Part shown: piece by piece, positions 21,110-31,011 of the stretch
Numbering within the stretch: position 1 is the first letter of the stretch
Layout of the letters: each line of letters begins with the position of its first letter
DNA from: Pseudomonas kribbensis
GTDB taxonomy: Bacteria; Pseudomonadota; Gammaproteobacteria; Pseudomonadales; Pseudomonadaceae
Assembly: GCF_003352185.1 (NCBI RefSeq)
Contig: NZ_CP029608.1
Coordinates: forward strand, 5,002,501 to 5,066,500
Direction: 5' to 3'
Length of the DNA stretch: 64,000 bases
Notes under the pieces: generated by a model
Told to the model about the DNA's origin: nothing
Database searches by the model: none
Seen by the model: only the letters and a program-made list of their open reading frames with translations
Translations under genes and position numbers: made by a program

Positions 21110-22012
21110 TTACTGCGCCAGATGCAGCAGGAGGAAATCGATAAACGCCCGCGACTTGTGCGGCAGATGCGCGGTATTGGGAAATACGACGTTGATCGAC
21201 TGAGAAGGCAACGTATACGCCGGCAACAGGCGAACCAGCCGTCCGCTGACGATATCGTCCTCGACCACCCAGCCCGGCAACACCGAGACACCGAGCGACG
21301 ACAAGGTCATCGAGCGAATCGCCGTGGAGGAATTGGATTCGAAATGGCTGGTGCCATTGACCTCCACCGTACTCCCCCGATCATCGCGCAGTACCCATTG
21401 CGTGGGTGCCTGCAAATTGCTGTTGGCAATCCATGGCACACCGTTCAGGTCCTGCGGCTGCGCCACCGGGTGACGCTCGACAAACGCCGGAGTCGCCACC
21501 AGCACGATTTGATAATCCGCCAGCTTGCGGCTCTTGAAGGCGGAATCCGCCAGATTGCCCAGACGCACCACCAGATCCAGTTTTTCCGCCACCAGATCAT
21601 TCAGCGATGAATTGAAGTTGTAGCACAGGCGAATTTCCGGATAACGCTCGCTGAACAATGGAATCAACGGAAGAATGAACTTCTCGCCGTATTCACTGGT
21701 TGAACTAATTCGTAACTTTCCAGAAACCCGGTTATTACCCTTCAGTACATTATCAAAGGCATTATCGATGTCCGCGACAATCCCCTTGAACTCTTCATAA
21801 AAGTCCTGACCAATTTCAGTCAACGATATATTCCGGGTATTGCGGATCAGCAACGTCGCCGAAAGAACTTCTTCCAGCGCCTTGACATGCAGGCTGGCCA
21901 TGGCTTTGCTGATACTCAGGTAGTTCGCGGCCTTGGTGTAAGAGCCGAAGTCGACCACGGCGAGAAATGTCTGAACCCGATTCAGATGAGAATGCATGGC
22001 GGTAGCGTTCAC
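21110..22012 (-). CDS. LysR-type regulator of the adjacent oxygenase/indole cluster
   Basis: A 300-residue LysR protein. The N-terminal winged helix-turn-helix (about 10-70: VQTFLAVVDFGSYTKAANYLSISKAMASLHVKALE in pieces) is slightly unusual in having SISKAMASLHV at the recognition helix. A periplasmic-binding-like effector domain follows (about 95-295). It is divergent from the MFS-led operon with a 91-base gap, the classic arrangement for a LysR regulator of that operon. The inducer is unknown; an indole compound is my guess. Confidence 0.88.
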   Translation of the reverse strand: MNATAMHSHLNRVQTFLAVVDFGSYTKAANYLSISKAMASLHVKALEEVLSATLLIRNTRNISLTEIGQDFYEEFKGIVADIDNAFDNVLKGNNRVSGKLRISSTSEYGEKFILPLIPLFSERYPEIRLCYNFNSSLNDLVAEKLDLVVRLGNLADSAFKSRKLADYQIVLVATPAFVERHPVAQPQDLNGVPWIANSNLQAPTQWVLRDDRGSTVEVNGTSHFESNSSTAIRSMTLSSLGVSVLPGWVVEDDIVSGRLVRLLPAYTLPSQSINVVFPNTAHLPHKSRAFIDFLLLHLAQ

Positions 22013-22020
22013 TGTTTAAT

Positions 22021-22042
22021 CCTTTCAAACATTGTTTCAAGG
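22021..22042. promoter_or_regulatory. Candidate LysR operator
   Basis: An imperfect palindrome CCTTTCAAAC-AT-TGTTTCAAGG centred between the divergent lysR and MFS genes, with an AAAC-ATT-GTTT core and a T-N11-A pattern. Its location fits an activator/autorepressor site. Confidence 0.4.
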
Positions 22043-22103
22043 ATAGTCGTATCGACACTCCAAGTCCATCGCCCCTATGCTTTGCGACAAAGAGGAAACA
22101 ACA

Positions 22104-23471
22104 ATGAACTATCGCTACAAGATCGCGCTGATCTTTCTGATCGGCTTTTTTATTGACTGCATAAACATATTCATGTCCGCCGTGGCATTACCCAGCATAT
22201 CGTCGACATTGCAAGTAAGCAGTTCTTCGGTGGCCTGGGTGGCGAATGCCTATATCCTCGGCCTGACCCTGATCATTCCTGTCAGCACCTGGCTTGCCGG
22301 GCGTTTCGGCAGCCGCGAGATTCTCACCGCTTCGATGCTGGTGTTTACCGGCTCTGTATGGATGTGCGGCCTGGCCGACAGTTTCCATGAGCTGGTGATC
22401 TGGCGCTTCGTCCAGGGCATCGGTGGCGGGTTGTTGATTCCTGTGGGTCAGGCGTTGACCTTCAACCTGTTCCAGGGCGAGCAACGGGCGAAAATCTCCA
22501 CACTGGTGATGGCCGTGGCCCTGATCGCCCCGGCCATTTCGCCGACCGTCGGCGGCATCATCGTCGACAGCAGTTCGTGGCGCTGGGTGTTCTACAGCAA
22601 CATTCCGTTTTCGCTGATCGCTGCCGGATTATCCTGGTTCTGGATTCGCGAAAGCCGACCGACCAGCCTGGCGCGCCCGGACATCCTCGGCCTGCTGCTG
22701 GTCAGTGCCGCGCTGGGCAGCCTGCTGATGGGCATGTCGCTGTACGGCGGCGACTATCCTGCCATCGAGGCCATTGCCTGTGTCGCGGCGGGCCTGATGT
22801 TCGTGGCGCTGTACCTGCTGCATTACCGTCGCAAGCGCGACGCGATCATTGACCTGAGCCTGCTCAAGAGCAAAAAGCTCAGCACCTCGATCTTCATCTA
22901 TTACGCGATTCCCGGCGTGTTCACCGGGGTCAACCTGATGAGCATCTTCTTTCTGCAGAACACCCTGCACTTCAGCGCCCGCCTCACTGGCATGTTCATG
23001 ATCCTCTACGCCACCGGCGCATTTATCGCGATGCTCACCTGCGGCCGGGTCTACAACAAAATCGGCGCCCGGCGCCTCTTCACCCTCGGCATGCTGATCC
23101 ACAGCGCCGGCATCGCCACCCTGATGCTGGTGGCTGCGCCGACCGATATCGGGGTGATCGTGATCGCCTACAGCCTGATGGGCATCGGCGGCGGGATCGG
23201 CGCCAACACCGCGCAAACCACCTCGCTGATGGACTTCAAGGGCAGCGAAACCCACAAGGCCAGTGTGATCTGGAACATCAACCGGCAGATGTCGTTCAGC
23301 GTCGGCGCGGCCCTGTTCCTGATGATCTACAACCTGCTGCTCAAACAGTTCGACTCGACGCCGGCCTATCACGCCACGTTCGCGATTGCTGCGCTGGTCG
23401 GACTGTTCCCGCTGTTTCAAATGAGCCAACTGAACCCTCCAAAGGAATGCCATGAACAACAACCCGGTTGA
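22104..23471 (+). CDS. MFS transporter, DHA2/EmrB-type drug exporter
   Basis: A 455-residue, strongly hydrophobic protein with about 14 membrane segments. It carries the DHA motif C-like region (LIAPAISPTVGGIIVD) and FVQGIGGGLLIPVGQA. The ATG at 22104 has AGAGGA upstream. It is the first gene of the presumed operon and overlaps the next gene by 20 bases. As EmrB-type carriers usually export, it may secrete the product of the cluster. Confidence 0.85.
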   Translation: MNYRYKIALIFLIGFFIDCINIFMSAVALPSISSTLQVSSSSVAWVANAYILGLTLIIPVSTWLAGRFGSREILTASMLVFTGSVWMCGLADSFHELVIWRFVQGIGGGLLIPVGQALTFNLFQGEQRAKISTLVMAVALIAPAISPTVGGIIVDSSSWRWVFYSNIPFSLIAAGLSWFWIRESRPTSLARPDILGLLLVSAALGSLLMGMSLYGGDYPAIEAIACVAAGLMFVALYLLHYRRKRDAIIDLSLLKSKKLSTSIFIYYAIPGVFTGVNLMSIFFLQNTLHFSARLTGMFMILYATGAFIAMLTCGRVYNKIGARRLFTLGMLIHSAGIATLMLVAAPTDIGVIVIAYSLMGIGGGIGANTAQTTSLMDFKGSETHKASVIWNINRQMSFSVGAALFLMIYNLLLKQFDSTPAYHATFAIAALVGLFPLFQMSQLNPPKECHEQQPG

Positions 23472-23868
23472 ACTAGCCCGCCACAGCATCCACCACGTGC
23501 ATGAACTGATTCATCGTGTCTTCACCAATGCCGACGGCGCCGGCGAAGCCGCCATCGCGCCACTGATGGATGTCTTCAGCGAAGACTTCAGCATGGTCAC
23601 CACCTCGGCCGCCGTGGTCGGGCGGGCCCAGGTCGAGCAACTGTTCAAAGGTGCGGTCGGTGCCCGTCCGGGCCTGGAGATCGACATCAGCGACCTGCAC
23701 ACGATCTGGCACGAAGGCCCGACCGTCGCCCTGCGCTACAAGGAAACCCATCGCCAGAACCAGCGCGAGACTTCGCGCATTTCCGTGGCGATCCTGCGCG
23801 TGCATCAGCACAGCACCCGCTGGCTGTACCTGCACGAAACGCCGCTGGCCCAGGAAAACCCGGCATGA
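23452..23868 (+). CDS. NTF2-like (SnoaL/DUF4440-type) protein
   Basis: A 138-residue protein of the cone-shaped NTF2-like fold judged by pattern: N-terminal helices (ELIHRVFTNADG), PLMDVFSEDFSMVT, VVGRAQVEQLF, and beta strands to the end. Such proteins act as small isomerases/hydrolases or as auxiliary subunits. It starts inside the MFS gene (AAAGGA before the ATG) and overlaps the reductase gene by ATGA. Dioxygenase beta subunits share this fold, so it may be a paralogous accessory. Confidence 0.7.
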   Translation: MNNNPVELARHSIHHVHELIHRVFTNADGAGEAAIAPLMDVFSEDFSMVTTSAAVVGRAQVEQLFKGAVGARPGLEIDISDLHTIWHEGPTVALRYKETHRQNQRETSRISVAILRVHQHSTRWLYLHETPLAQENPA

Positions 23869-24797
23869 ATTACACCGTTACCCATTGCCGGATGCTGTCG
23901 GCATCGATCAAGGAAATCACCGTCACCGGCGCTCCCGCCGCCCCGCAATCAGCCCATGCCGGTGCGCACTTCAAATGGCTGATAGCGCCCTCGGGCGAAT
24001 GGCGTCATTACTCCACCGTGGAACTGGGCGACAGCGCCGAAGGTCGTTTCACCTTCGCCATTCGCCTCAGTGACGACTCCCCCAGCAGCCAGTACCTGCG
24101 CTCGCTGGCGGCCGGCGATCAGGTGCAGCTCGAAGGCCCGTTCAACACCTTCAACTACCCGCTCGACACCCGGACCGGTCGCGACATCGCGATTGCCGGC
24201 GGCATCGGCATCACTCCGCTGACCGGCATCCTGCGGCATCTGACAGCGCTGGAGCGTTCGGCGCATCTGCATTACTTCGCCCGAAGCGTCGACGATGCGG
24301 CCTACGCCGAAGATCTGCGCTCACTGCTGCAAGACCGCATGAACCTGCATCTGTCCGGCCAGCGCCCGGCGATTCACCAGGTACTCGCTGACCTGTGCGC
24401 CGAAGACCGGCTCTATGTCTGCGGTCCGGCGGCGATGCTCAGCGACATCCTGAGCCACGCCGAATCCGCCGGGCTGCCCCGCGATCGCATTCATCTGGAG
24501 GTGTTTAACGTCGCCCGGGATGAAGGCGCCCGGGGTTTCACCGTCGAGGCGGCAGATTCCGCCGTGAGCATCGAGGTCGGTCCCGACCAGACCTTGCTCG
24601 AAGCCCTGGAGGCCGCGGGTCTGGACCCGATCTCTGACTGCCGTCGCGGCGAGTGCGGCGTCTGCGCGCTGGACGTGCTGGAAGGCGACGTCGAGCACCG
24701 GGATTTCATCATGAGCGAACAAGAAGCGGCCTGCAGCGCACGGATCTATCCCTGCGTTTCCCGGGCGAAAAGCCCACGCCTGAAGCTGGCGATCTGA
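23865..24797 (+). CDS. Flavin/2Fe-2S reductase for the Rieske oxygenase (VanB/phthalate dioxygenase reductase type)
   Basis: A 310-residue reductase passing electrons from NAD(P)H to the oxygenase. Order of domains: flavin-binding barrel with RHYSTVEL (about 45-52), NAD-binding domain with IAGGIGITPLTGIL and YVCGPAAMLSDIL, then a C-terminal plant-type 2Fe-2S domain with CRRGECGVC and a later cysteine in IYPCVSRA. This FMN-NAD-Fe-S order is that of VanB/PDR. It overlaps the gene before it and lies 13 bases before the alpha subunit. Confidence 0.9.
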   Translation: MNYTVTHCRMLSASIKEITVTGAPAAPQSAHAGAHFKWLIAPSGEWRHYSTVELGDSAEGRFTFAIRLSDDSPSSQYLRSLAAGDQVQLEGPFNTFNYPLDTRTGRDIAIAGGIGITPLTGILRHLTALERSAHLHYFARSVDDAAYAEDLRSLLQDRMNLHLSGQRPAIHQVLADLCAEDRLYVCGPAAMLSDILSHAESAGLPRDRIHLEVFNVARDEGARGFTVEAADSAVSIEVGPDQTLLEALEAAGLDPISDCRRGECGVCALDVLEGDVEHRDFIMSEQEAACSARIYPCVSRAKSPRLKLAI

Positions 24798-24810
24798 AGA
24801 GGACACCCCG

Positions 24811-26112
24811 TTGGACAACTATTTCAATGGCAGAGAAGTGCACAAGTCTCTGTTCCTTGATCAACAACTGTTCGAGCAGGAACAGCAACGCGTGTTTGCC
24901 GCAAGCTGGTGCTACCTGGGCCACGACAGCCTGATCCCCGAAACCGGCGATTACTTCACCGCCACCCTCGCCGCCCAGCCGCTGGCCATGGTGCGCCAGA
25001 AGAACGGCGACATCGTGGTGCTGCACAACCGTTGCCCGCACAAGGGCGTGAAAGTGCTGGCCGAAGCGCGTGGCAACGTGGGCCGCTTCATGCGCTGCCC
25101 CTATCACGCCTGGACGTTCAAGACCGACGGCGAGCTGCTGAGCATCCCGGTGAAAAAGGAATACGACGACTGCGACCTGAGCAGTTGCTCGGCCCACAAG
25201 GGCATGCAGCCGGTCGCGGCGGTGCGCAACTATCGCGGCTTCGTGTTCGTGCGCCTGAGTGAGACCGGCATGGGGTTCGACGAGTTCTTCGGCGAGTCGC
25301 TGTCAACGCTGGACAACATGGTCATGCGCTCCCCGCAAGGCAAGCTGCGCGTGGTCGGTCAGCCGCTGCTGCACAAGCATCGCTGCAACTGGAAGATGGT
25401 CGTCGACAACCAGACCGATACCTGCCACCCGATGATCGCCCACGAGTCCTCGGCCGGCGAAGCCATTCGCCTGTGGAAGGAAACCGGTGACCAGAGCCAG
25501 CCTGCGCCGATGGCCGTGGAACTGTTCTCGCCGTTCATGGCCTCGTACGAATTCTTCGCCGGCATGGGCATCCGCGTCTGGCCCAACGGCCACGGACACA
25601 CCGGGGTCAGCAACTCGATCCACAAGGCCTACACGGGCATTCCCGGTTACTGGGAGCTGATGGTGGAAAGCTACGGCGAGGACCAGGCCCGGGCCATTCT
25701 CGACGACACCCGGCATAACACCGTGTATTTCCCCAACCTGATGGTCAAGGGCCCGATCCAGACACTGCGGGTGATTCGCCCGGTGAGTGCGCAGGAAACC
25801 ATCGTCGAGTCGTGGATCTTCGAACTGCAGGGCGCCCCGGTGCAGCTGCTGGAGCGAACCGTGCAGTACAACAACCTGATCAACTCGCCGTGCTCGATGG
25901 TCGCCCATGACGACGTTGAGATGTACGAGCGCGCCATGGAAGGCCTGCACAGCGACGCCAACGAATGGGTCAACGTTGCCCGCCTGTTCGAACCGGGCGA
26001 GACCTACGACCAGACCCGCGTGGTGTCCGGCACCAGTGAACTGGCGATGCGCAACTTCTACGACAACTGGCAAAACCTGATGCGGGACGACCATGCACCA
26101 CGATCAAACTGA
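24811..26112 (+). CDS. Rieske ring-hydroxylating oxygenase, alpha subunit
   Basis: A 433-residue terminal oxygenase subunit. The Rieske cluster ligands are C75-x-H77 (RCPHKG) and C96-x2-H99 (CPYHAW). The mononuclear iron site is visible as DNQTDTCHPMIAH (D-x2-H-x4-H). The start is a TTG with AGAGGA upstream. The beta subunit gene overlaps its end. Substrate unknown; the linked iaaM/iaaH-like genes suggest an indole compound such as indole-3-acetate, by analogy with the Rieske components of iac/iad indoleacetate catabolism clusters. Confidence 0.9.
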   Translation: MDNYFNGREVHKSLFLDQQLFEQEQQRVFAASWCYLGHDSLIPETGDYFTATLAAQPLAMVRQKNGDIVVLHNRCPHKGVKVLAEARGNVGRFMRCPYHAWTFKTDGELLSIPVKKEYDDCDLSSCSAHKGMQPVAAVRNYRGFVFVRLSETGMGFDEFFGESLSTLDNMVMRSPQGKLRVVGQPLLHKHRCNWKMVVDNQTDTCHPMIAHESSAGEAIRLWKETGDQSQPAPMAVELFSPFMASYEFFAGMGIRVWPNGHGHTGVSNSIHKAYTGIPGYWELMVESYGEDQARAILDDTRHNTVYFPNLMVKGPIQTLRVIRPVSAQETIVESWIFELQGAPVQLLERTVQYNNLINSPCSMVAHDDVEMYERAMEGLHSDANEWVNVARLFEPGETYDQTRVVSGTSELAMRNFYDNWQNLMRDDHAPRSN

Positions 26113-26575
26113 ACGGGCCATCGAGCGTTTGCTCGAGACCGAAATGCACCTGCTCGATCAACAGGACTTCGACGCCTGGCAGCAATTGCTGAGCGATGAC
26201 TACACCTACTGGATTCCGATGACCCGCGAACAGCGCAGCCCGCTGCACGAATCCTCGCTGGTGTATGAAGACCGCTTCCTGACCACCCTGCGCATCAACC
26301 GCCTGGCCAATGCCCGCAACTTTTCCCAACAGCCGAAAAGCCGTTGCCTGCACATTGCCCAGCGCCCCCGGATCACGATTGAAGAGCCGACCTGCAGCGC
26401 CGTCGCCAGCAGCAATCTGCTGTATTGCGAGGCCCGTGGCGAGCGCGAATGGCATTACCCCGCCACCGTCGAACATCGCCTGATCAACCTCGACGGCGAG
26501 TGGAAAATCCAGGGCAAGAAGATCCTGTTGCTCAACCCCGGCCGCGCCCTCGAAAGCCTGCAGCTCATCATCTGA
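26093..26575 (+). CDS. Ring-hydroxylating oxygenase, beta subunit
   Basis: A 160-residue small subunit of the alpha/beta Rieske oxygenases with the typical N-terminus (AIERLLETEMHLLDQQDFDAW in part) followed by LLSDDYTYWIPMTRE and a C-terminal WKIQGKKILLLN. It is structural and has no cofactor. It begins 20 bases before the alpha stop. Confidence 0.9.
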   Translation: MHHDQTERAIERLLETEMHLLDQQDFDAWQQLLSDDYTYWIPMTREQRSPLHESSLVYEDRFLTTLRINRLANARNFSQQPKSRCLHIAQRPRITIEEPTCSAVASSNLLYCEARGEREWHYPATVEHRLINLDGEWKIQGKKILLLNPGRALESLQLII

Positions 26576-26594
26576 CCGACCGAGAATTACCCCT

Positions 26595-28304
26595 GTGAAC
26601 TCCATGAACCATCCTGCCAGCCAGGATACCGCGTGCCTGTCTTTCCCCTATGTCGACCTGCTCTACGATTACGGTCAGTTCCTGCGCAACGCCGACCAGG
26701 CCATCGGAAACCTGCCGGCTCACACGGCGGAAAAACACATCGGCATCGTCGGCGCCGGCCTGACCGGGCTGGTGGCGGCCTATGAACTGCTGCGTGCCGG
26801 TGCCCGTCGCGTGACCCTGTTCGAGGCTGAAGAAAGCCACATCGGCGGTCGCCTGTTGACTCAATGCTTCGATGAAGAACAACCGCAGTTCATCGCAGAA
26901 ATGGGCGCCATGCGCTTTCCACCGAGCGAGGTCGGGCTGTTCCATTACCTCAACAAGTTCGGCATCCAGACCACCGAAGCCTTTCCCGATCCGGGGGTGG
27001 TCGATACCGAACTGCATTATCGTGGCGAGGCCCATCACTGGGCCGCGATGCAACCGCCGCCGGCGCTGTTCAGCACCGTGCATCAGGGCTGGAATGCGTT
27101 TCTGCGCGAAGGCGCGGTACTGGACGACGGCACCAGCCTTGCCCCGCCGCTGCTGCTGACCGAACTGCTCAAGCAGCACAATTACTGCGAAGTGCAGCCG
27201 GAATGGCAACGCTATCTGGACTGCTTCGGTGACAGCTCTTTCTATTCGGCGATGGTGCGCATCTTCACCAGCAAGAACCCGCCGGGCGGCAAGGTCTGGC
27301 GCAAACCGGAAGACTTCCACCTGTTCGGCTCGCTGGGCATCGGTTCCGGTGGTTTCCAGTCGGTCTATCGCGCCTCGTTCACCGAGATTCTGCGGCTGGT
27401 GGTCAACGCGCTGGAGGTCAATCAGCGGCTGGTGCCGAACGGCATCTCCTCGCTGGCAGAGCTGATCGCCGAGACCCGGTTCAACGGCATGCAACTGCGC
27501 GACATGATCTGCCGTACCCGCATCGAATCGATAAACAAGGGCCCCGACGGACAGATCCTGCTGGCCGGCAGCAACGGCGAAACCTACGCCTGCGACCGGG
27601 TGATCACCACCACCACGACCCGCGCCTTGCAGGTCAACCTCAAGCTCACCCAGAACCAGGCGTTCGTGAATCGCGACGTGGCCCGGGCCATCAACGAAAC
27701 CCACATGGTCGGGTCCTCCAAGCTGTTCATCCTGACCAGGGACAAGTTCTGGCTCAAACACGGCCTGGCGCAGAACATCCAGACCGACACCCTGGTCAAG
27801 GGCGTGTACTGCCTGGACTACGCGCCACAAGACCCGGACTCCTGGGGCGTGGTGCTGATCAGTTACACCTGGGAAGACGATTCGCACAAGATGGTTTCCA
27901 TGACCGACAAAGTGCAGCGCTGCCTGCGCCTGGTGGACGAGCTGGCGATGAGCGCGCCGGAATTCGCCCGCCACCTGATCCCGCTCAACGGCGACTACCA
28001 GCGCTACGTGCTCGAATACGACTGGCTGACCGACAAGCATGCCCTCGGCGCCTTCAAACTGAATTTCCCCGGCGACGACATCTATTCCGAGCGCCTGTTC
28101 TATCAGTTCCGCACCGCTCTCGATCCGCGTCAGGACACCGGTCTTTACCTGGCGGGCTGCGGCGCTTCGTTCACCGGCGGCTGGGCCGAAGGTTCGATCC
28201 AGACGGCCCTGAACGCCGCCTGCTCGGTCATCAGCAGCCTGGGTGGCGACCTGATCGACGGCAATCCACTCGACGGGCTGGTTCCGCAGTACCGCTACTG
28301 CTGA
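26595..28304 (+). CDS. Tryptophan 2-monooxygenase-like flavoprotein (IaaM type)
   Basis: A 569-residue flavin amine oxidase. It has the FAD Rossmann motif GIVGAGLTGLVAAYELL (about 49-65), FEAEESHIGGR, and EMGAMRFPPSE, which closely resembles the corresponding motif of IaaM, and a C-terminal FAD segment LAGCGASFTGGWAEGS. IaaM converts tryptophan to indole-3-acetamide; P. savastanoi IaaM is about 557 residues, so length fits. The start is GTG 26595, or ATG 26604. The amidase gene follows after 31 bases. Phenylalanine monooxygenase is an alternative. Confidence 0.82.
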   Translation: MNSMNHPASQDTACLSFPYVDLLYDYGQFLRNADQAIGNLPAHTAEKHIGIVGAGLTGLVAAYELLRAGARRVTLFEAEESHIGGRLLTQCFDEEQPQFIAEMGAMRFPPSEVGLFHYLNKFGIQTTEAFPDPGVVDTELHYRGEAHHWAAMQPPPALFSTVHQGWNAFLREGAVLDDGTSLAPPLLLTELLKQHNYCEVQPEWQRYLDCFGDSSFYSAMVRIFTSKNPPGGKVWRKPEDFHLFGSLGIGSGGFQSVYRASFTEILRLVVNALEVNQRLVPNGISSLAELIAETRFNGMQLRDMICRTRIESINKGPDGQILLAGSNGETYACDRVITTTTTRALQVNLKLTQNQAFVNRDVARAINETHMVGSSKLFILTRDKFWLKHGLAQNIQTDTLVKGVYCLDYAPQDPDSWGVVLISYTWEDDSHKMVSMTDKVQRCLRLVDELAMSAPEFARHLIPLNGDYQRYVLEYDWLTDKHALGAFKLNFPGDDIYSERLFYQFRTALDPRQDTGLYLAGCGASFTGGWAEGSIQTALNAACSVISSLGGDLIDGNPLDGLVPQYRYC

Positions 28305-28335
28305 TTGCGTCCCTTTCTTTTCGCCGAGACTTTCC

Positions 28336-29673
28336 ATGTACAGACAGTTTTCCATCGAACAGCTCGTCAACGGATTTCGCCGTGGCGAGCTCTGCCTCGA
28401 CACCTGGCAGCAGGCCCTGCGCGAGCGCCATGACCGGGCGCAGCATCTGCACAGTTTCATCACGTTCGACCCCGCGACGTTCGCCTACACGCCGGACGCG
28501 GATCGCCTGGCGCCGCTGTACGGGCTGCCGGTGTCCTTCAAGGACAACATCAATGTCAGCGGCATGCCGACCACTGCCGGCACCCCCGGCCTCGCCGATT
28601 ACCGGCCGCAGCACGACGCCGGTATCGTGGCGCGCTTCAAGCAACTGGGCGCGCGGGTGGTGGGCAAGAACAACATGCACGAACTGTCGTTCGGCGTGAC
28701 GTCGGCCAACCACACCTATGGCGCGGTCATCAACCCGGCCAACGAGCTGCATGGCGCCGGTGGCAGCAGCGGTGGCTGTGCCGCCGCTGTCGCCGCCGGG
28801 CTGGTGCCGTGTGCGGTAGGCACAGATACCGGCGGCTCGGTGCGCATCCCGGCGGCGTTTTGCGGCGTCGTCGGCCTGCGCCCGACGACCGGCGAATACC
28901 CGGCCGACGGCATCGTCCCGGTCTCGCAGACCAAGGACACACCAGGCCTGCTGACGCGCACGGTGGAAGACTGCCGGTTCGTCCACGGCCACCTGACCGG
29001 CCGGCACCTGCCGGCACTGCCCGACGATCGTGCGCTGCGCATCGGAATTCCCGAGCGCTTCCTCTGGGCCGATCTGGACAACAACGTCAGCCGCGACTGC
29101 CGTGCCGCCATCGACGCGCTCGCCAGCGCCGGCATGGAAATCGTTGCGGTCGACGATACGGTGATCGGCGAGATCAACGAGTGCATCCAATTCCCGCTGC
29201 CGATCTACGAATTCTTCATCGACTTTCCACGGTTCCTGATGAAGGAAGGGCGCGGCGCAGAATTCCTCGACATCCTGGCGCGGATCGGCGATCCCGGGAT
29301 CAAGAAAATCCTCACTGCACAGCTGGAAAGCCCGGCGATTTCCTATACCGACTATGTGCAGGCCTTGATGGGCAAAGTCCGGCTGGAGCAGGAGTACCGG
29401 CAACTGTTCAGTCGCCACCAGCTGGACTTGATGGCCTACCCGACAGTCAGTTGCAGTGCGCCGTTGCTGGCTGATTGTGCGGATGAAAGCCATTTCGAGC
29501 GGTTCGTGCGCAACACCGATCCGGCCAGCAACCTGGCAGCGCCGAGCATGACCGTGCCGGTGGCGGCCAAGGGTTCGCTGCCGGTGGGCCTGTCGTTCGA
29601 TGCATTGCCGGGGCAGGACGGATTTCTGTTGCAGGCAGTGAGCCGGTTGTCCCCCCTGCTGAACATCCGATGA
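28336..29673 (+). CDS. Indoleacetamide hydrolase-like amidase (IaaH type)
   Basis: A 445-residue amidase-signature enzyme with the Lys-cisSer-Ser triad: K in VSFKDNINVSG, the two serines in HGAGGSSGGCAAAV and GTDTGGSVRIPAAFCG. The segments GKNNMHELSFGVTS and LPVGLSFDAL agree closely with IaaH of P. savastanoi as I remember it. It should hydrolyse indole-3-acetamide to indole-3-acetate. Following the IaaM-like gene it completes the indole-3-acetamide route. Confidence 0.82.
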   Translation: MYRQFSIEQLVNGFRRGELCLDTWQQALRERHDRAQHLHSFITFDPATFAYTPDADRLAPLYGLPVSFKDNINVSGMPTTAGTPGLADYRPQHDAGIVARFKQLGARVVGKNNMHELSFGVTSANHTYGAVINPANELHGAGGSSGGCAAAVAAGLVPCAVGTDTGGSVRIPAAFCGVVGLRPTTGEYPADGIVPVSQTKDTPGLLTRTVEDCRFVHGHLTGRHLPALPDDRALRIGIPERFLWADLDNNVSRDCRAAIDALASAGMEIVAVDDTVIGEINECIQFPLPIYEFFIDFPRFLMKEGRGAEFLDILARIGDPGIKKILTAQLESPAISYTDYVQALMGKVRLEQEYRQLFSRHQLDLMAYPTVSCSAPLLADCADESHFERFVRNTDPASNLAAPSMTVPVAAKGSLPVGLSFDALPGQDGFLLQAVSRLSPLLNIR

Positions 29674-29676
29674 GTA

Positions 29677-29703
29677 CGGCTCGCCCCGACAAGGGGCGAG
29701 CCG
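29677..29703 (+). repeat. Intercistronic hairpin between amidase and permease genes
   Basis: A perfect 11-base inverted repeat CGGCTCGCCCC/GGGGCGAGCCG with a five-base loop immediately after the amidase stop. Without a T run it is more likely to stabilise mRNA or attenuate than to terminate fully. Confidence 0.6.
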
Positions 29704-29742
29704 GATCGAACCTTCCATAACAAAATCAATGCAGGCCCAGCC

Positions 29743-31011
29743 ATGCGTGCCACGTCACTTGCTTCATCCCCTTCCCCCGCCGCACTCGAACGCTCGCCCT
29801 CGGTCCTGGGCGGCGCCATGATCATCGGCGGAACCATCGTCGGCGCCGGAATGTTTTCCCTGCCGGTGGTCATGTCCGGGTTATGGTTTTACGGGTCGGT
29901 CGCCGTGTTGGTGTTTGCCTGGTTCTGCACCTTGCATTCGGGCCTGATGATTCTCGAGGCCAACCTCAACTACCACGAAGGCGCGAGCTTCTCGACCATC
30001 ACCCGTGATCTGCTGGGTCGTACCTGGAACCGGATCAACGGTCTGAGCATCGTCTTCGTGCTCTATACGCTGACCTACGCCTACATTTCCGCCAGCGGTT
30101 CAGTGATCCATCACACCCTGCAGTCCATGGGCGTCTCGCTGTCACCGCGTGCCGGCGGGCTGGGTTTCACCGTGCTGGTAGCGTTCATCGTCTGGCTCAG
30201 CACCTCGGCGGTGAGCCGGATGACCACCGTAGTGTTCGGCGCGAAGATCCTGGCATTCTTTCTGACCTTCGGCGGCCTGCTCGGCCATGTACAACCGGCC
30301 ACGCTGTTCGATCTGAACAGCGGCACCACCAGCTACTGGCCCTATCTGCTGGTAACCCTGCCCTTCTGCCTGACTTCGTTCGGGTTCCACGGCAACGTGC
30401 CGAGCCTGATGAAGCATTTCGGCAAGGACCCGAAGCGCATCCGTGCCTGCCTGCTGGGCGGCACGTTGATCGCACTGGGCCTGTATCTGGTGTGGATGCT
30501 GTGCAGCATGGGCAACATTGAGCGCGAAGCCTTCAAGGGCATCGCCCAGCGTGGCGGCAACATCGACGTGCTGATCAGCGCTCTGGGCTCACGCCTGGAC
30601 AGCGCCAATGTCGACCTTCTGCTGAATTTCTTCTCCAACTTCGCCGTGGCCTGCTCGTTTCTCGGCGTAACCCTGGGCCTGTTCGACTATCTGGCCGACG
30701 TGCTCGGTTTCGACGACCGGCCCATGGGCCGTCTGCGAACCGCTGCCGCGACTTTCCTGCCACCGATGCTCTGCGGGTTTCTCTGGCCGGAAGGCTTCAT
30801 TCACGCCATCGGTTTCGCCGGGCTGGCCGCCACACTTTGGGCCGTCATCACCCCGGCACTGCTGGCCCGGGCCTCGCGCAAACGCTTTGGCAGCCCGCTC
30901 TATCGGGTCTGGGGCGGTACGCCAATGATCGCTCTGGTGCTGTTTTTCGGCGTGATCTGCGCGGTCGCGCACCTGCTGTTCAACCTGGACCTGCTGCCGG
31001 TCTGGCGCTGA
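29743..31011 (+). CDS. Aromatic amino acid permease (Mtr/TnaB/TyrP family)
   Basis: A 422-residue permease with about 11 membrane segments. [20 protein letters not shown] near the N-terminus and [22 protein letters not shown] are hallmarks of the hydroxy/aromatic amino acid permease family. It would import tryptophan (or tyrosine) by proton symport. Its position after the IaaM/IaaH-like genes supports tryptophan as the substrate feeding that pathway. Confidence 0.88.

Follow-up and report, generated by a model that had tools for sequence, protein, structure and literature searches.

In the genome of Pseudomonas kribbensis, a single contig of 6.32 Mb (NZ_CP029608.1), genes predicted to make the auxin indole-3-acetic acid (IAA) from tryptophan are packed into one run with genes for an oxygenase predicted to act on IAA. 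The run, nine genes at positions 21110-31011 of a 64,000-nucleotide stretch (contig positions 5,002,501 to 5,066,500; 'the window' hereafter), comprises a divergent regulator gene (lysR), a major facilitator superfamily (MFS) transporter gene (mfs), a gene for an NTF2-like protein (ntf2), the three genes of an oxygenase resembling IadCDE, the auxin-making genes iaaM and iaaH, and the tryptophan permease gene mtr. On balance we lean towards reading it as a biosynthetic operon whose product is a small, exported, oxidised-IAA compound, and in which the lysR-mfs-ntf2 trio would serve in sensing, export and self-protection and would be kept by non-producers too. We are inclined this way because the catabolic half of the iad system is missing, an exporter is encoded, a methyltransferase has been added in Xenorhabdus, and the trio is separable from the rest. 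Each protein comes from a known family; what is new is the pinning of the oxygenase to IadCDE, the absent catabolic half, a spread that is wide but rare, and the separable trio. A first-pass annotation of the window had remarked that making and oxidising auxin in one operon is not a textbook arrangement, and no description of iaaM combined with iadD was found in the open-licence literature searched.

Predicted enzymes and the missing catabolic half

The flavoprotein encoded by iaaM is by homology a tryptophan 2-monooxygenase, converting tryptophan to indole-3-acetamide. Its best solved match is the tryptophan 2-monooxygenase 4iv9 (711 bits, E 8.3e-213), which we take to come from P. savastanoi; the next solved family, the L-amino acid oxidase/monooxygenase 3we0 (197 bits), and the phenylalanine oxidase 2yr4 (69 bits) were rejected as types on scores far under this. 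Residues R98, K365, Y413 and W466 of the P. savastanoi enzyme, which we presume to be important, correspond to R107, K376, Y424 and W477 of the window protein and are kept in 19/19 rows, with one gap at the first residue in a broken copy from Pantoea wallisii. In a tree of 41 selected rows the flavoprotein groups with proteins named tryptophan 2-monooxygenase, which upholds its first-pass description as IaaM-like. The amidase is by homology a probable indoleacetamide hydrolase (IaaH): the motifs SFKDN, GGSSGG and TDTGGSVR are all there, confirming the amidase triad seen earlier, and the best family is PRK07488 (NCBIfam indoleacetamide hydrolase) at 436.7 bits, below the curated cut-off of 532 and ahead of the next family at 217 bits. 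The permease, previously assigned to the Mtr type, scores 692 bits against the NCBIfam tryptophan permease PRK10483, above the cut-off of 515.

Among solved structures, the alpha, beta and reductase components of the oxygenase are closest to IadD, IadE and IadC, respectively. The reductase's best relative is 7ylr (E 3.9e-52, 181 bits; next 6kbh, 120 bits), an entry titled Ferredoxin that we take to be Variovorax IadC, an identification of our own which the entry does not state. The beta subunit finds 7yls_A, whose sequence is the same in 9o71 (E 5e-26; next 3.7e-7), and the alpha subunit finds 9o71 (E 2e-149) and 7yls/8h2t (E 3e-147), with the next relative at 1.4e-34; 9O71 is IadDE of Variovorax (PMC12633357; this and the other papers cited are drawn on in excerpt). 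The Rieske ligands and iron site read from the alpha sequence in the first pass can be placed at C75/H77/C96/H99 and H206/H211/D368, and of the two kinds of auxin catabolism, iac and iad, in which that annotation noted Rieske oxygenases, the enzyme belongs to the iad type; the iac type was rejected, the alpha subunit being closest to IadD. No second alpha matching that of the window at E 1e-60 was found in its own genome.

IadDE is reported to bind IAA (PMC10374108), in a pocket for which that paper names nine residues; the window alpha matches Variovorax IadD at eight of them. All nine are identical to those of 69/69 other aligned iad-type alphas, among which Achromobacter is well represented, a genus in which strains with iad-like operons have been confirmed as IAA degraders (PMC11630574, as excerpted). 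The ninth position is Q in the window and in 69/69 iad-type rows, and L in Variovorax and in 22/22 distant rows; in this distant control set (19 Pseudomonas and 3 other alphas) two pocket positions differ in 19 rows. Oxygenation of IAA by the window IadCDE is thus predicted by homology, and the possibility that the enzyme acts on an unrelated aromatic acid is not borne out: its closest relative is the IAA oxygenase IadDE and the pocket residues are kept.

Annotated iad loci run in the order MarR, iadC, D, E, F, G, H, I, J, with the MarR gene listed in two of three plasmid records. When Roseibium proteins were used as queries for iadF-J, none of the 16 loci of the window type yielded iadF-I, and one contained a match to iadJ, a short-chain dehydrogenase/reductase (SDR) of 31% identity far from the unit. 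Of 60 iad loci outside this type whose sequence extends 7 kb or more downstream, 57 have all of iadF-J and the remaining three have three or four of the five. Nor did Pfam find a MarR-family match among the nine unit genes, in which the regulator is of the LysR type. The pathway first proposed, from tryptophan import through indoleacetamide and IAA to oxygenation, is well supported by homology as far as the oxygenation step, and the catabolic genes iadF-I are absent in 16/16 loci.

Distribution of the unit and its separable trio

Across a sample of 398 Pseudomonas genomes, an alpha subunit of at least 85% identity occurs in 11, own genome included; at E 1e-60 the number rises to 34, the added 23 having no more than a relative of 36-38% identity. 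Window-type IaaM is found in the same 11 genomes and lies beside IadD in every one. The synteny survey that had been suggested as a check showed all nine genes in the same order in the 10 other Pseudomonas copies fetched, so the arrangement is not a matter of chance, and 9 of these 10 sit, as does the window operon, between gene pairs that we take, by their sequences, to be glpR-glpD and aatJ-aatQ (the glpD|aatJ site). Unit carriers nearest to the window among named relatives are Pseudomonas botevensis and P. bananamidigenes. Alphas of 36-38% identity are present in 24/398 Pseudomonas genomes, including G049, in which a second Rieske system (L045, 6600-14600) is 33-37% identical to the window reductase, alpha and beta and is neighboured by LysR, cysteine-hydrolase-like, SDR and dienelactone-hydrolase-like proteins, named by eye.

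A contig search, in which the best 80 of 421 loci were analysed, placed iaaM next to the alpha gene in 14 of those 80. Of these, 11 are Pseudomonas loci, seven of which occupy the glpD|aatJ site, and the rest come from Xenorhabdus szentirmaii, X. stockiae and Pantoea wallisii. No iaaM or iaaH match was obtained in the remaining 66 of the best 80, betaproteobacterial by their titles (29 titled Achromobacter), some of these records being short. Genome-search and contig-search loci overlap, some being of the same strain, and their counts are not additive. A plasmid search returned 29 records with an alpha relative; both Pantoea records carry the unit (in one, the MFS gene is missing from the distributed gene table and was found by tblastn), and three other records that were opened are iad degradation loci. 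These three, alphaproteobacterial plasmids from Sulfitobacter, Ruegeria and Roseibium (L146-L148), carry the iad operon, with TRAP transporters beside it in two. On the draft contig of Pantoea wallisii (L057) the lysR and iaaM frames are broken; iaaM is full length in the two Pantoea plasmid copies. At the level of the order (390 genomes) the own genome was the sole match at E 1e-120, and a search of 369 genomes of the class with the Xenorhabdus alpha turned up the own genome and, in three others, relatives of 35-46% identity. The unit looks rare outside Pseudomonas, Pantoea and Xenorhabdus.

Trees of the alpha subunit and of IaaM were built from selected rows, the alpha tree taking 25 of the 69 iad-type alphas among its 57 rows. 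In it the unit alphas form one clade (support 100/100), whose stem is long, at 0.74 changes per column, and which also takes in five database alphas of unlabelled gene context. An alpha from Marinomonas spartinae (P0126), 69% identical to that of the window, lies inside this clade. Both Xenorhabdus copies of the unit lack mtr and have gained an O-methyltransferase gene between ntf2 and iadC, whose product finds its closest solved relatives in the Photorhabdus methyltransferases Plu4890-4892, 4894 and 4895, a series that we presume to serve in natural-product tailoring. The X. stockiae copy (L059) also lacks iaaH, and its alpha is the only one of the 16 to carry the changes F239L and F242L, F242 being the pocket Phe.

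The first three genes of the unit lead a wider life. Among 12 other Pseudomonas relatives of the window strain, glpD is followed by aatJ with no unit genes between in seven, four have no aatJ within 1.5 kb, and one has lysR, mfs and ntf2, with no enzymes, after glpD. The NTF2-like protein as query detects 55/398 Pseudomonas genomes, of which 11 are the producers; of the 44 non-producer loci 34 were fetched, the ten weakest (36-44% identity) being left out, and in 33 of these 34 a divergent lysR and mfs directly precede ntf2. The exception, L249, showed neither lysR nor mfs. Trio-only genomes thus outnumber those with the full unit about threefold (33 vs 11 of 398). Within the stretches retrieved for the 33 trio-only loci, iadC-E, iaaM, iaaH and mtr are absent save for an iadC remnant in G299, and a lysR match accompanies every one of the 33, just as it does each of the 16 full loci, although the Pantoea wallisii gene is broken. 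Twelve of the 33 are at the glpD|aatJ site, and 21 were not seen there. In 20 loci the open reading frames (ORFs) 3' of ntf2 are of several kinds, as judged by the start of their translations only.

A tree of the MFS proteins, with 22 rows from full loci and 33 from trio-only ones, requires at least seven changes between the two states, five of the changes being forced by well-supported branches. In G299 (L228), ntf2 is followed by two iadC fragments and then by a gene whose product has transposase and integrase-core domains, and the enzymes have therefore probably been lost there and the trio kept. Ratios of non-synonymous to synonymous substitution (dN/dS) between trio-only loci are 0.07-0.17 (lysR), 0.06-0.32 (mfs) and 0.11-0.69 (ntf2), from nine pairs of each gene and 27 in all, values low enough to suggest mainly purifying selection on the three genes. 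For the ntf2 product a single solved relative was found, PA1314 (1tp6, E 5e-12), whose gene in P. aeruginosa we believe to be neighboured by a regulator and an MFS gene.

Gene layout and the divergent promoter

All nine ORFs are intact, with no internal stops, and the minus-strand lysR faces eight plus-strand genes (Table 1). The tight packing noticed in the first pass, with overlaps or gaps under 75 bases, is accurate: spacings are -20 bases for mfs/ntf2, -4 for ntf2/reductase, 13 for reductase/alpha, -20 for alpha/beta, 19 for beta/flavoprotein, 31 for flavoprotein/amidase and 69 for amidase/permease. Alignment across species and codons make 22104, not 22077, the most likely start of mfs, and 21997, not 22012, that of lysR. 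Against the NCBIfam model efflux_EmrB the mfs product scores 218.7 bits (cut-off 230.2). Recent arrival as foreign DNA was set aside on composition, the operon having a guanine-cytosine content of 61.4% and the window 61.0%. The divergent region is conserved across Pseudomonas, Pantoea and Xenorhabdus, and within it ATCGAC, unchanged in 17/17 aligned rows, overlaps the promoter-like element. A scan for sigma-70 promoters performed at chance level (2 found, 1.8 expected), so the divergent promoter owes its credibility to conservation across species only.

Table 1. Features of the nine-gene locus, in window coordinates
Feature	Position	Strand	Description
lysR	21110..21997	-	LysR-type regulator, divergent; alternative GTG start 22012; Pfam LysR_substrate 6e-38 and HTH_1
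divergent promoter region	21998..22103	.	promoter-like TCGACA-18-TATGCT at 22052-22081
mfs	22104..23471	+	DHA2-type (EmrB-like) efflux transporter, 455 aa; Pfam MFS_1 4e-54
ntf2	23452..23868	+	SnoaL/NTF2-like protein, 138 aa; Pfam SnoaL_2 25.1 bits, below cut-off 27
iadC-like reductase	23865..24797	+	310 aa; flavin, NAD, C-terminal 2Fe-2S; Pfam Fer2 and FAD-/NAD-binding domains
iadD-like Rieske oxygenase alpha subunit	24811..26112	+	433 aa, TTG start; Pfam Rieske and Ring_hydroxyl_A
iadE-like beta subunit	26093..26575	+	160 aa; Pfam Ring_hydroxyl_B
iaaM	26595..28304	+	predicted tryptophan 2-monooxygenase, 569 aa, GTG start; Pfam Amino_oxidase
iaaH	28336..29673	+	predicted indoleacetamide hydrolase, amidase-signature, 445 aa; Pfam Amidase
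mtr	29743..31011	+	predicted tryptophan permease, 422 aa; Pfam Trp_Tyr_perm

Proposed function, competing explanations and known systems

In the mechanism that we favour, whose uptake, IaaM, IaaH and IadCDE steps rest on homology to characterised enzymes, Mtr would import tryptophan, IaaM would convert it to indole-3-acetamide and IaaH would hydrolyse this to IAA, to which IadDE, supplied with electrons by IadC, would add one oxygen at C2/C3 of the indole. The product would be C10H9NO3, provided that the window enzyme acts like Variovorax IadCDE, and would probably not be degraded further, since no iadF-J genes accompany the unit. The DHA2-type transporter may export this oxygenated product, the LysR-type regulator may sense it or a precursor, and the NTF2-like protein may reshape or neutralise it where it is reactive; as the half of the system devoted to sensing, export and self-protection, the trio would for that reason persist alone in strains without the producer half. 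By chemical reasoning, our guess at the compound is a hydroxyindolenine or a furoindolinone lactone, C10H9NO3 with seven deuteriums retained. A bolder version, which we hold only tentatively and consider somewhat less probable than not, is that an exported, undescribed 2,3-oxidised IAA derivative (such as the 2,3-epoxide/3-hydroxyindolenine, or the lactone 3a-hydroxyfuroindolinone) acts on competitors or hosts, that the trio is an immunity module, and that the locus represents a third, biosynthetic type of IadCDE locus.

Several points weigh against a biosynthetic function. The case is made from genes, by sequence comparison. The identity of the pocket with that of other iad alphas fits plain auxin inactivation equally well. 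Accounts of the Variovorax IadCDE product are in conflict as excerpted, IAA being converted to 2-oxindole-3-acetic acid (oxIAA) in one (PMC10374108) and, in a preprint, to another C10H9NO3 compound, one that retains all seven deuteriums and is proposed to be a 2,3-epoxide (PMC12633357). The unit as a whole need not descend from a single ancestor, because operon-labelled IaaMs do not form one clade and need four changes (41 selected rows), a count made uncertain by unlabelled database rows that may themselves be operon-borne; one such row has exactly the sequence of a Pantoea operon copy. The own genome gave no match to an IadI query that finds IadI in 60/68 loci by tblastn, in a search that ran without a positive control in the same tool. 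X. stockiae probably does not make IAA by this route, since it has no iaaH beside the unit, and elsewhere its draft genome offers poor matches only (31%, and 42% over a short piece). Deep-branching trio-only lineages, finally, fit an older, separate role for the trio, which might handle a plant compound.

This last point leads to the best-surviving alternative, which we nonetheless judge unlikely: that the trio arose earlier, as an efflux system against aromatics from plants or microbes, and shares a promoter with the auxin genes by happenstance. Besides the deep branches in the MFS tree, the 21 of 33 trio-only loci not seen at glpD|aatJ would agree with it; the constant company of trio and enzymes throughout the 16 full loci, which span three families, does not, nor do the repeated changes of state on the same tree and the iadC remnant in a trio-only genome. 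Less probable again is an auxin pathway with a built-in brake, in which IAA is the effective product and IadCDE inactivates the surplus, yielding low or pulsed auxin. IadCDE alone does remove IAA and end its effect on roots (PMC10374108 and PMC12633357, in the passages drawn on), and the pocket is unchanged, but producer and destroyer lie in one tightly packed run (of genes as read, not of transcripts), with no MarR-type regulator among the nine genes and none listed beside the two Pantoea plasmid copies; moreover, IaaM and IadCDE occur together in all 16 loci, and Xenorhabdus adds the methyltransferase.

The X. stockiae copy, with iaaM and iadCDE, no iaaH beside them and the sole changes at F239 and F242, invites the idea that the oxygenase acts on indole-3-acetamide or another amide or acid made by IaaM, iaaH taking a later or partial flux and the product being an oxidised indole amide. 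We think this quite improbable: iaaH is there in 15/16 copies, the pocket Lys and Arg are kept in all 16, and the exception is one genome in a draft assembly, a single case whose changes may mark a switch to an amide substrate or decay. Least probable of all is catabolism, in which tryptophan would be degraded via IAA and enzymes encoded outside the operon would carry out the later steps. The iad degradation pathway does begin with IadCDE (PMC12633357, as excerpted) and the operon has a dedicated permease, but it also has an efflux-type transporter, iadF-I are missing from all 16 loci and IadI from the genome search, and the IadF and IadJ queries recover 44 and 40 generic relatives there, the best at 28% (131 bits) and 33% (82 bits). 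The genome's other three Rieske alphas have glycine betaine oxygenase as their best family, one over the cut-off and two below, in a comparison in which iac genes beyond the Rieske alpha were not searched. Anti-phage defence was set aside, the NTF2-like protein and the alpha subunit giving no match among the three proteins compared and the flavoprotein's 71-bit desaturase-like match, with one weak other, being read as a shared flavoprotein fold.

Should a biosynthetic third type of locus with a self-protection trio prove true, it would suggest that a new class of indole natural products exists. Strains with iaaM/iaaH have been counted as auxin makers (for example PMC8719888, in excerpt); if auxin is oxidised in the same operon, they would be mis-scored, and what they release may be an inactive indole or another one altogether.

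Set beside known systems, the unit resembles each in part. It shares with the Variovorax iad operon homologous alpha, beta and reductase subunits, the gene order C-D-E and the IAA-pocket residues of iad-type alphas; it differs in lacking iadF-J and the MarR repressor, and in adding IaaM, IaaH, Mtr, the DHA2 exporter, the NTF2-like protein and LysR. With the iaaMH genes of the P. savastanoi type it shares IaaM and IaaH homologues in the same order, whereas classic iaaMH copies in two more Pseudomonas genomes of the sample (G094 and G384) have only iaaMH of the unit genes within 19 kb, and their IaaM, about 56% identical to that of the window, lies across a supported tree split. The iac operon, too, has an amidase. 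That of Pseudomonas putida 1290 degrades IAA to catechol and likewise sets a Rieske alpha/beta pair in an auxin locus; the window pair is of the iad type, iac-like and iad-like being the two degradative locus types recognised in the excerpted text of a survey of auxin oxygenases (PMC9613470). The trio-only loci of Pseudomonas, lastly, have the same three genes in the same divergent layout as the window, with no biosynthetic genes attached.

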